From Thermoproteota archaeon (GTDB taxonomy: Archaea > Korarchaeota > Korarchaeia > Korarchaeales > Korarchaeaceae): a DNA stretch of 64,000 nucleotides. Positions 22,406 to 54,605 of the stretch are shown piece after piece. Both the position numbers and the translations under genes were made by a program. Positions within the stretch are counted from its first letter, which is position 1; the number at the start of each line of letters is the position of its first letter. The stretch spans positions 1-64,000 of the forward strand of contig JAOZFN010000010.1 of the NCBI GenBank assembly GCA_027492205.1, written 5' to 3'. The notes beneath the pieces were generated by a model that was given only the letters and a program-made list of their open reading frames with translations, was not told where the DNA came from and made no database searches.

Positions 22406-22453
22406 GCCCGAAACCTTTTTGTTTCATTTTAGATCGGGCCGGGAGGGCCGAAG

Positions 22454-23515
22454 ATAGAGATCCGCGTCAGGGGGCGGACTGTCAACCTGAATCTTCTGGC
22501 CGAGCAGCACGGCGTCGATCTGAATACCCCAGTCAGGGACCGTTCCCTCGAGCCCAACAGATCCACCAGGATCTACAGGCTCGATCAGGATGTCGACGCG
22601 GAGTTGTACCTGTTGGACACGCAGGAGGCCAGAGAAATCGCCGCGTGGCCGCACGTGGTCATGGAGGAGCTGGACAGGAGGGCCTTCTCTACCGCCGGCG
22701 CCTGCGTGGAGTTTCTTGCACGAATAGGAGTTCTGAGCGGTCCATTAGTTGTTTTACACGTGCTCAGGGCTGGACCGGGTTACAGGGTCGCAGAGGCGCT
22801 GAGGGGCCGAGAGTTAACCTTCAGGGAGTTGTACGTTCGGCCGGAGTACCTCGCCACTTCGGAGAGGGATCACACGGGGGAGTCCGTCAGGGAGGTTAGG
22901 GTCACCTTCTCCGACTTCTCCCAGGCCCCAGAGGGAGAGAAGATAACGCTGATCAAGCCGGACACCGAGGCGACGGGCAGGACGGGGTTAGTATCTCTGG
23001 AAACGGCCTTCAGAGAACTGGAGGCGAGGTCCTGCACCGTGAGGACGCTCGTCCTTTACGGGTTCATCACGGACATCGCGGTCAGAAGGATAGCCCGATT
23101 TGCGGCGGACAGAGGGGTGGACAGGGTCGTGGCCGTCGCCCTCGTCGACCTAGCCGCCTTGGCCTCCAACGACTACGACATGGTGCTCTACGGGCCAGAC
23201 CTCCATGCGTGGAGGATCAAGAGGAAGCTAGTCAGGCTTGGGGCCACGGTGGGTCTCGAGACCTTCGCCGACATGGTCCGGATCTACGTTCCAGGACTCG
23301 ACCAGCCCGGGGACTTCTCGGAGAGGCAGTCATCGCTGTTCAACGGGGTGGGCTGGACGAGTGGGGACATATCGGGCCACCTGAGATCCACAGAAGACGC
23401 CATTGAGACCCTGTTGACCGTACCCGATCTGGAGGATTGGCAGAGGGAGATAGCAGAAGAGGAGCTTGATAGGGTGAGGGAGCTCGCGGGGAGGCTCTCG
23501 GGGCAAACCGTTTAA
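22454..23515 (+). CDS. Phosphoribosyltransferase-like protein; start codon appears non-canonical (ATA)
   Basis: The protein resembles uracil-phosphoribosyltransferase-type enzymes in order: VVLHVLRAGPGYRVAEAL (compare the LRAGLG region), KPDTEATGRTG where the PRPP loop lies, and IYVPGLDQPGDFSERQ near the C-terminus, like the YIVPGLGDAGDR end of UPRTase. The PRPP loop is divergent, so activity is uncertain. The first TTG is at 22604, but the same frame reads clean coding sequence (VNLNLLAEQHGVDLNTPV) from a stop at 22430, and GGGAGGG stands 7 nt before an ATA at 22454. I mark that as the start; a TTG start giving 303 residues is the alternative. Confidence 0.6.
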   Translation: MEIRVRGRTVNLNLLAEQHGVDLNTPVRDRSLEPNRSTRIYRLDQDVDAELYLLDTQEAREIAAWPHVVMEELDRRAFSTAGACVEFLARIGVLSGPLVVLHVLRAGPGYRVAEALRGRELTFRELYVRPEYLATSERDHTGESVREVRVTFSDFSQAPEGEKITLIKPDTEATGRTGLVSLETAFRELEARSCTVRTLVLYGFITDIAVRRIARFAADRGVDRVVAVALVDLAALASNDYDMVLYGPDLHAWRIKRKLVRLGATVGLETFADMVRIYVPGLDQPGDFSERQSSLFNGVGWTSGDISGHLRSTEDAIETLLTVPDLEDWQREIAEEELDRVRELAGRLSGQTV

Positions 23516-23547: not shown

Positions 23548-24114
23548 CTGATACTGTCAGACGTTGAGATCAGGGAGGCCCTCAAGTCGGGGGACATCAG
23601 GATAGAGCCCTTTGATCCCGACAGCCTGGGACCGTGTTCTGTAGACCTCAGGCTGGACACCCTCTTCAGGGTGTTTGGAGGGGACGGAGAGGTGGATCCC
23701 ATGAGGCTGGAGACCGTCGACAGGGGTGCAAGGCTGGTCGACACGGGCGGAGAGCCATTCACGCTCCAACCGGGGCAGTTCGTACTCGCCAGGACGGTGG
23801 AGAGGATCGCGCTCTCGAAGGGACTCGCGGCCTTCTTGGAGGGGAGGAGTAGCGTGGCTAGAATGGGCGTGATAGTTCATGCGGCGGGGCTCGTCAATCC
23901 CGGAACCGGGATGGCAAAACCGGTCCCCGTCGTCCTGGAGATATTCAACGAGAACGTGGTTCCCGTGAGGCTTTATCCGGGCATGAGGATCGTCCAGATA
24001 ATCTTCCTGAGGCTGGGAAGGCCTGCCTCGGCGGGGTATGATGAGAGACCGTCGTCCAAGTTTGTGAGTCAGGAAGAGCCCAGTCTGCTCTCGAGCAGGG
24101 GTGATCGAAGCTGA
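23548..24114 (+). CDS. dcd: dCTP deaminase; apparent CTG start
   Basis: The 188-residue protein has dCTP deaminase features: the N-terminal ILSDVEIREALKSGDI, IEPFDPDSLGPCSVDLRL, FVLARTVERIALS, the catalytic LEGRSSVARMGVIVHAAG, and GMRIVQIIFLRL. It deaminates dCTP to dUTP for thymidylate synthesis. The conserved N-terminus lies upstream of any ATG, GTG or TTG in frame. The CTG at 23548, six bases after GAGGGT, aligns exactly with the Met of the family MILSD. A TTTAATT box lies near the previous gene's stop. Its own TGA overlaps the start of the antiporter gene. Confidence 0.88.
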   Translation: MILSDVEIREALKSGDIRIEPFDPDSLGPCSVDLRLDTLFRVFGGDGEVDPMRLETVDRGARLVDTGGEPFTLQPGQFVLARTVERIALSKGLAAFLEGRSSVARMGVIVHAAGLVNPGTGMAKPVPVVLEIFNENVVPVRLYPGMRIVQIIFLRLGRPASAGYDERPSSKFVSQEEPSLLSSRGDRS

Positions 24115-25163
24115 GGAGGATCGAGGCGGTTGTTCTGGCCTGCCTCTCAGGCCTCGACCTGACCCTCGCGTTCGGCTACCGGCTCGGGCTCATTGAGATC
24201 GGCCCAACGCTCCTGTTCGTCCTCTCTCTGGTGGTGCTGGGGTGGCTCATCGCCAGGGCCTCTGAGGTCGCAGTCGGCGCGCTGGAGAGCTTCTCCGAGG
24301 CGGCCGGCGCTCCCCCGTATCTGACGGGAGTCTTGAGTTCACTCGCGTCCAGCCTCCCGGAGATCGCCCTGACGCTGATGGCCGTGATGTCGGGCGACCC
24401 AGAGGTCGTGGAGGTGGCGGTGCTCACCGTCATGATGAGCGTGGGCGCGGCGACCGTCATAGTCTCCGCGACGGCGGCCGTCGCCTCCATTAAGTCTGGT
24501 AGAGGCGTCGTTGAGGTCCCCAAGGAGGCCATGAGCGATGAGCTGAACGCGATCGCCTTCACGCTGACTGCCTACCTGGCCCTCTCCATGGTCTCGATGG
24601 CCAGACTCTTCTCGGGTCACTCCGACCAGCTCCCCAGAACCGTCGGCCCGATCCTGCTTTTGGCCTACCTCTCATACATAGTCATGCTGGCATCTAGGGC
24701 GGGGGGCAGGGGGAGGGGGACGGGCGGCGCCGCCAGACATCTGCTCGTGGGGCTGGCCGCGATGATCCCCGTCTTCATATCCGCCGAGGTGCTAGTCTAC
24801 CTAGTGGAGGAGCTGACGACCGCCGGGGGACTCGATGTGGTCCACGCCGCCGCGGCGCTGGCCCTGGTTGGGACGGTCCCAGAAAACGGGGTCGCCATCG
24901 TCTCCGCGGCGAAGGGGGACGTTGAGATTGGTCTCGGAAACGCGCTGAGCGGGGTCACGATACTGGCGCTGCTGGCCGTCGGGATCGTGGCAAGCGTCAG
25001 GCCGATACCCCTCGACGACTACGTTGTTGCCCAGATGGGGGTCACGACAGCCTCGGCGCTTATGCTGAAGTTCTCGGTGAGGGACGATGGCAAGATAGAC
25101 CTGGGCGAGGCGATCCTTATGGTCGCCCTGCAGGCACTGGCGTTCGACCTACTGCTGACCTGA
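24111..25163 (+). CDS. Na+/Ca2+-exchanger-family (CaCA) cation antiporter; apparent CTG start
   Basis: The polytopic protein of about 350 residues has the two alpha-repeats of CaCA exchangers: GVLSSLASSLPEIALTLMAV and LVGTVPENGVAIVSAAKGDVEIGLGNALSG. It would exchange Ca2+ or another cation for Na+ or H+. The first canonical start (GTG 24231) falls inside the first transmembrane helix. The frame is open from a TGA at 24102, and GGTGATC stands 4 nt before a CTG at 24111 that overlaps the dcd stop as CTGA. The last 47 bp overlap the convergent glycosyltransferase. Confidence 0.85.
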   Translation: MRRIEAVVLACLSGLDLTLAFGYRLGLIEIGPTLLFVLSLVVLGWLIARASEVAVGALESFSEAAGAPPYLTGVLSSLASSLPEIALTLMAVMSGDPEVVEVAVLTVMMSVGAATVIVSATAAVASIKSGRGVVEVPKEAMSDELNAIAFTLTAYLALSMVSMARLFSGHSDQLPRTVGPILLLAYLSYIVMLASRAGGRGRGTGGAARHLLVGLAAMIPVFISAEVLVYLVEELTTAGGLDVVHAAAALALVGTVPENGVAIVSAAKGDVEIGLGNALSGVTILALLAVGIVASVRPIPLDDYVVAQMGVTTASALMLKFSVRDDGKIDLGEAILMVALQALAFDLLLT

Positions 25164-52926: not shown

Positions 52927-54183
52927 GTGCCCCTCTACGACGTCATCGTCGTTGGCGCAGGTCCTTCTGGCTCTACGGCGGCCAGGCTGCTCTCAGAGAG
53001 TGGCTTTCGAGTCCTCCTGATTGAGAGGGCGCGCCACCCCAGGAGGAAGGTCTGCGGGGGAGCGCTGTCCCTGAGGGCGGTCCGGCGCTACGGCATTCCC
53101 ATAGAAGAGGCCGCCGAGATAAGGGACGTCTTCCTGTGGGGACCAGGCGGAGCGGAAGTGGTGGTCCCCTCCGACAGGCCAGTCGGGTACCTCATGCCAA
53201 GGGAGAGGTTGGACGAGATTCTCTTCAGGAGGGCCCTCGAGTCCGGCGCGGAGGCCGCTCAGGGAGAGGCGGTCGTCAACGTGGATGTGTCCGGCGAGGG
53301 GGTGCTCGTGACGACGACGAGGGGCAGGTACTCGGCGAGGGCGGTGGTGGGCGCCGATGGCTTTGCCTCGAGGGTGAGAGAGTCTCTGGGCCTGACTCCG
53401 CGTGGGTGGTTCACCGATAACGCCTTCTGCCCCGTCTGCTACGTCCCCCTAGACTCAGCCGGGGAGCTGACGGGAGACGCGGAATTCTACCTAGGCGTCT
53501 ACGGGGAGGGATACGCGTGGATATTCAAGCACCGAGACCACCTGAACATCGGGATAGGGACCTTCTTGAGGAACTACAAGTCTCACCCGGCCACTCTCCT
53601 GGTCGAGTTCCTCCGACGGCACTCTGAGGCCTCCTCTAGGGTACTGGAGCCCCCCCAAGAGTCCAAGATCGTCGGCTCCTACATCCCATACGACGGCGCC
53701 ATCCCAAAGACGTACTCGGAGAGGGCACTCCTGGTCGGAGATTCAGCCGGTTTCGTCAGCACGCTGACGGGGGAGGGGATCTACCACGCCATGCTGTCCT
53801 CCGAGCTGGCCGTCGACGTCCTCTCGAGGTCCTTGGAGGAGGGGGATCTATCGGAAGAGCGGCTCTCCGAGTATCAGAGGAGGTGGCTGCGGGAGCCCGA
53901 GCTCGGTGAGATGCTCGCGTACGGGAAGCTCCTGAGGAACCTCCTGTTCAAAGATCCCAGGCTGCTCTCGAGAGTCCTCAAGGCCGCCTCCGAGGACGTG
54001 GAGCTGGCTAGACTGATAAGGGACATAGTGTTCGGCCTCAAGGGGTACAAGGCAGGCGCCTGGGAGCTAGCGAGGAGGATACCGCTTCGGGTGGCAATGG
54101 ACATGCTCCTGCTTGCTCCAGGGGACGTCTTCAGGCTTGCCGCCGGGTCCTCCAGCCCATTCTTCGGGGGTGGTGAGGGCTGA
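52927..54183 (+). CDS. Geranylgeranyl reductase-family FAD enzyme, second copy
   Basis: The 418-residue protein has YDVIVVGAGPSGSTAARLLSESG, KVCGGALSLRAVRRYG, AVVGADGFASRVRESLG and LVGDSAGFVSTLTGEGIYHAML, again a geranylgeranyl-reductase-type flavoprotein. The FCPVCYVP segment is where some members have Cys pairs. The GTG at 52927 is 26 nt from TTTTATCTATG, a good leaderless start; the frame upstream overlaps HxlR. Its TGA overlaps the CTG of the zinc-ribbon gene. It is probably in an operon with the next two genes. Confidence 0.88.
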   Translation: MPLYDVIVVGAGPSGSTAARLLSESGFRVLLIERARHPRRKVCGGALSLRAVRRYGIPIEEAAEIRDVFLWGPGGAEVVVPSDRPVGYLMPRERLDEILFRRALESGAEAAQGEAVVNVDVSGEGVLVTTTRGRYSARAVVGADGFASRVRESLGLTPRGWFTDNAFCPVCYVPLDSAGELTGDAEFYLGVYGEGYAWIFKHRDHLNIGIGTFLRNYKSHPATLLVEFLRRHSEASSRVLEPPQESKIVGSYIPYDGAIPKTYSERALLVGDSAGFVSTLTGEGIYHAMLSSELAVDVLSRSLEEGDLSEERLSEYQRRWLREPELGEMLAYGKLLRNLLFKDPRLLSRVLKAASEDVELARLIRDIVFGLKGYKAGAWELARRIPLRVAMDMLLLAPGDVFRLAAGSSSPFFGGGEG

Positions 54184-54605
54184 GGCTCAAGATCTCCTGT
54201 CCTAGGTGCGGAAGGGAGGAGGACCTCGGAGATCCCGAGAGGCTCGCGACCAAGGCGCTCGAGTCCCCAGCCAAAGTCGCGGTGGTGGCCCTGGATCACG
54301 GGAGTCACATCCTCCTGGTGATGGTGGACGAGAGGGGTCAGGTGGTGGGCACCGAGGTCTCAGAGAGGGCCTCGGCCGGCGGGGTGTTGGACCGGATCCG
54401 GATCAGGCCCCTCCCGTCCAAGAATCCCCCGAGCTTGGACGCCCTCTCCAGGGACGAGTGGAGGGTATTTGCCCTATGTGACGGGATCAGGACCACTCAT
54501 GAGATATCGTCGATCCTCGGGATCCCCGAGGGGATGGTCCGTCTCATAGTGGAGTCCCTCAGGGCGAGGGGCTACCTCTCTGAGGTGGTGGTGGAGGTGG
54601 GTTGA
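54180..54605 (+). CDS. Zinc-ribbon/winged-helix protein of unknown function; apparent CTG start
   Basis: The 141-residue frame opens with LKISCPRCGREEDLGDPE (one CxxC), then an alpha/beta region (KVAVVALDHGSHILLVMVDERG). A winged-helix-like end (WRVFALCDGIRTTHEISSILGIPEGMVRLIVESLRARG) suggests a small sensor-regulator. The first canonical start (GTG 54282) would lose the zinc motif. A stop lies 6 bases before the CTG at 54180, which overlaps the preceding stop as CTGA behind GGTGA. It couples the reductase to the V4R protein that follows after one base. Confidence 0.65.
   Translation: MRLKISCPRCGREEDLGDPERLATKALESPAKVAVVALDHGSHILLVMVDERGQVVGTEVSERASAGGVLDRIRIRPLPSKNPPSLDALSRDEWRVFALCDGIRTTHEISSILGIPEGMVRLIVESLRARGYLSEVVVEVG

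Follow-up and report, generated by a model that had tools for sequence, protein, structure and literature searches.

A calcium/cation antiporter gene in an archaeal genome that we place in the Korarchaeia is very probably translated from the CTG codon at position 24111 of the window, by which we mean the whole stretch of 64,000 nucleotides that was analysed, and the preceding gene, dcd, would start at a CTG in the same manner. In the mechanism that we favour, the Shine–Dalgarno sequence GGTGATC would place the 30S subunit at CTG 24111, where the initiator Met-tRNA (anticodon CAU) would read CUG with a first-position mismatch, as for GUG and UUG, and the antiporter protein would begin with methionine. 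Ribosomes ending translation of dcd would probably help initiation, since the antiporter start and the dcd stop share the nucleotides TG. The CTG would have taken the place of an ATG or TTG in an ancestor of the genus. We infer that initiation does occur at the CTG, with methionine as the first residue, and that expression is low.

Genomes and samples

The window belongs to an assembly of 1.94 Mb in 17 contigs (G000; 63% GC in the stretches sampled). It was compared with G001, a separately assembled genome of a different species of the same genus, with G002, G004 and G006 from other genera of the same family and with G007, also of this family. The screen for CTG starts set about 834 kb of G000, with 847 called genes, against 400 kb of G004 and 800 kb of G007. 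A search of the window against Rfam gave no match. A 16S gene was not found in the G000 assembly, so the anti-Shine–Dalgarno sequence used here is the one general to archaea.

Probable start site of the antiporter gene

The antiporter gene (24111–25163, forward strand) encodes 350 residues from a CTG start to a TGA stop; its extent is based on a match to PF01699, a structure model and the N-termini of homologues. Its frame is bounded on the 5′ side by an in-frame TGA (24102–24104, two codons before the CTG), as the earlier note had read it, and continues with TCG, AAG, CTG (24111–24113), AGG, AGG and ATC. Between TGA 24102 and GTG 24231 (24231–24233, codon 41) the frame contains no ATG, GTG or TTG, so that the first canonical start lies well inside the coding region. 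The coding score of the frame reaches to about position 24104. The sequence GGTGATC (24100–24106) lies inside the dcd coding sequence, 4 nt 5′ of the CTG, and matches at seven of seven positions the consensus GGAGGTGATC, which is a general archaeal consensus; the near-perfect ribosome-binding site described earlier is thus borne out. Among 9,890 internal CTG codons of G000, only 0.6% have a Shine–Dalgarno-like match of at least seven at a usable distance.

The dcd stop TGA occupies 24112–24114 and therefore shares TG with the antiporter start, giving a CTGA overlap of −4 type. The earlier note took this overlap for classic coupling with CTG in place of ATG. The geometry is present, but it is not evidence by itself: such overlaps show no excess in the sampled part of G000 (22 seen, about 20.5 expected), so the evidence has to come from homologues. 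Translational coupling from dcd to the antiporter gene is likely; it would fit both the −4 geometry and the position of the Shine–Dalgarno sequence inside dcd.

In the comparison that the earlier note had proposed, the N-termini of the homologues line up with CTG 24111 rather than with GTG 24231, which supports the CTG. The residue in this column is encoded by ATG in G006 (MKKVE) and G002 (MGRAE) and by TTG in G004 (LGKVE); the corresponding sequence here is LRRIE. The homologues reach 40 residues upstream of GTG 24231, and this stretch is conserved at the protein level in other genera. G001 retains both the CTG and an identical Shine–Dalgarno sequence.

These alignments also bear on the other readings of the locus. 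Initiation at a nearby near-cognate codon, ATC 24120 or CTG 24135, is improbable: both codons are in frame and a GAGG precedes CTG 24135, but their spacing from a Shine–Dalgarno sequence is poorer and the homologues start at 24111, not three to eight codons later. A start at GTG 24231, with the stretch before it untranslated, has in its favour that this is the first canonical codon; it is very improbable given the protein-level conservation and coding score of that stretch, and the resulting protein would lack helix 1 and some of helix 2. Equally little weight can be given to a −1 frameshift near 24102–24112 that would fuse dcd and the antiporter into one product. The two frames do overlap from TGA 24102 to TGA 24112, but no slippery heptamer is visible, and in the homologues the antiporter has its own start and dcd lies on other contigs. 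That an error of sequencing or assembly masks an ATG, as the earlier note allowed, is likewise hardly credible. G001 is a metagenome assembly and G000 is probably one too, but the same CTG and Shine–Dalgarno sequence are found in both, although G001 was assembled separately from a different species with 94.7–97.2% DNA identity over the locus (about 3–5% of sites differ), which makes a random sequencing error unlikely; the CTG pattern also recurs in several genes of G000. Initiation at CTG 24111 is the reading that we retain.

Fold of the antiporter

The Na_Ca_ex domain (PF01699) is matched over two stretches with an E value of 5.8e-20 and 72.2 bits (cut-off 24.9). The two repeats, together with the fold match, place the protein in the CaCA superfamily (CAX/NCX fold). 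An AlphaFold model (mean pLDDT 79, from an alignment of only five sequences) resembles the CAX structure 4kpp and NCX_Mj. Its first helix spans residues 3–24 and its second residues 32–64. GTG 24231 had been placed in the first transmembrane helix; both hydropathy and the model put it instead in the middle of the second hydrophobic helix. Since residue 41 falls inside this helix, a protein started at the GTG is, on the model, very unlikely to adopt the family fold.

dcd and the first gene of the operon

The dcd gene (dCTP deaminase; 23548–24114, forward strand; stop TGA) is itself predicted to start at CTG 23548. The assignment as dcd rests on TIGR02274 (E value 3.4e-42, 144.2 bits against a cut-off of 92.8) and PF22769, which is also matched. 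The first ATG, GTG or TTG of the frame is GTG 23671, 41 codons inside the domain, while the sequence CTG ATA CTG TCA GAC at 23548 aligns with M-I-L-S-D. Nearly all homologues examined, including those of G002, G005, G006, G008 and G014, have ATG in the start column; the exceptions are a G006 paralogue with TTG and G030, with ATG one or two codons upstream. In G001 the start column of dcd is CTG as well, and a TGA closes the frame four codons before it.

The first gene of the operon (22433–23515, forward strand) has only a weak match to an isochorismatase domain. It contains no ATG, GTG or TTG before TTG 22604, though homology extends upstream of that codon. The sequence AAG-ATA, which includes ATA 22454, is common to G000, G001, G002 and G006, and an ATG in G005 corresponds to ATT in G008 and G010. 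By these comparisons the gene likely starts at ATA 22454 or at another near-cognate codon. The CTG start of dcd and the likely non-canonical start of the gene before it go beyond the claim of the earlier note.

Other probable CTG starts in the genome

In the G000 sample, six CTG starts are backed by homology, amounting to at least 0.7% of the 847 called genes. Besides the antiporter and dcd, they include two adjacent genes on contig C7 that we provisionally take to be lipoate-ligase-like. One (C7:3635, lplA-like) has homologues that carry ATG, GTG or TTG at the aligned codon; the other (C7:4372) has GTG in G001 and G004 and an in-frame GTG five codons later. The fifth (C12:1686) has ATG in G004. 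The sixth lies in the window (54180–54605, forward strand; LRLKISCPRCG…). Its CTG is preceded by GGTGA at 3 nt and, in G000 and G001 alike, by an in-frame stop at two codons; the start position is not pinned down by its single, distant homologue. The weakest of the six are C7:4372 and the gene at 54180. Less certain candidates are a gene on the minus strand of C3 (28957, with a Shine–Dalgarno match of seven) and two genes on C9. The same screen of 1.2 Mb of G004 and G007, for which fewer homologues were available, gave no homology-backed CTG start.

With a Shine–Dalgarno sequence taken into account, CTG was the most enriched codon among genes that lack a canonical start (5/15 versus 34/261). 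The enrichment is weak (p = 0.045, uncorrected for 61 codons), and the case for CTG starts stands on the individual alignments. An expectation-maximization model of starts that allowed all 64 codons proved too noisy, with GAG and AGG gaining weight too. Broad protein alignments produced many false missing starts, which traced back to overlap with upstream genes, to conserved promoter boxes and to a suspected intron in cbf5.

Several further loci were observed in the course of the screen. In the C7:4732 region, a DNA ligase-like gene (ATP-dependent, named by eye) has no canonical start near its onset, and the codon aligned with the G007 start, a GTG, is ACG. In the C9:297070 region (forward strand) the ATG at which the G007 gene starts is aligned with an ACG; an ATG further downstream is the alternative. 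A cbf5-looking gene in the C9:225665 region (forward strand), and also in G004, appears split upstream of KVTGVLPI, in keeping with the known archaeal cbf5 intron. In G007 contig C1 (177303–177870, counted along the reverse strand of the first 800 kb), a gene with no canonical start near its onset reads GGGGATC CAT CTG ATA ACC TGG and possibly starts at the CTG or the ATA.

Initiation machinery

The initiator tRNA of G000 is normal, with an A1-U72 pair, the GGG/CCC stem and the anticodon CAU. CUG is thus most simply read as methionine with help from the Shine–Dalgarno sequence, and an altered initiator tRNA was rejected. Loss of aIF1 was rejected as well, the factor being present. In the genus of G000 and in G004, the zinc-knuckle cysteines of aIF1 are missing and loop 1 is shorter by one residue. 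In Pyrococcus abyssi this loop has a part in 30S:mRNA binding, and the zinc knuckle is absent from about one third of archaeal aIF1 proteins (PMC6237735). The altered aIF1 is only a lead, since it is common to G004, where the screen gave no homology-backed CTG start.

More tentatively, CUG may be a regular fourth start codon in the genus, used by about 1% of genes, and the dcd operon may be a run of three genes that all lack a canonical start (perhaps ATA, then CTG and CTG), an arrangement that would keep expression low or reflect start selection relaxed by the altered aIF1. We consider this broader proposal possible, though rather doubtful.

Comparison with known systems

In the output of standard gene finders, the antiporter and dcd would come out too short or misplaced, with losses of 40 and 41 residues, respectively, and surveys of start codons based on annotation undercount CTG starts. 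Homology-backed CTG starts in one lineage offer clean cases for how archaeal initiation (aIF1, Shine–Dalgarno strength and stop–start overlap) tolerates CUG. No paper on archaeal CTG starts turned up in the literature searched, which included few subscription journals. Such starts seem to be scarcely on record, because prediction programs generally presuppose ATG, GTG or TTG.

The antiporter shares its overall fold and two Na_Ca_ex stretches with the CaCA antiporters CAX (4kpp) and NCX_Mj (3v5u), but its identity to these solved structures is only 15–19%. The −4 overlap, as ATGA or GTGA, is the commonest geometry of termination–reinitiation in Haloferax volcanii (PMC10666635). As in those pairs, the TG is shared by start and stop and the Shine–Dalgarno sequence of the downstream gene lies inside the upstream gene; here, however, the start is CTG and the coupling is a predicted one. 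Rare bacterial non-canonical starts, such as infC (ATT) and Streptomyces sigR (GTC), are repressed by IF3 (PMC5472188). They resemble the present case in using a start other than ATG, GTG or TTG that gene finders miss; the antiporter, in contrast, is archaeal, and the fidelity factor would be aIF1. Switches from AUG to CUG were found for two of 61,358 AUG starts in prokaryotes (PMC5622118), and these too are derived CUG codons replacing an ancestral canonical start. That survey probably relied on annotated starts, whereas several CTG starts are found here in part of one small genome. The CTG-start genes are a well-supported case of a known kind, and the pattern of the operon is the more unusual part.
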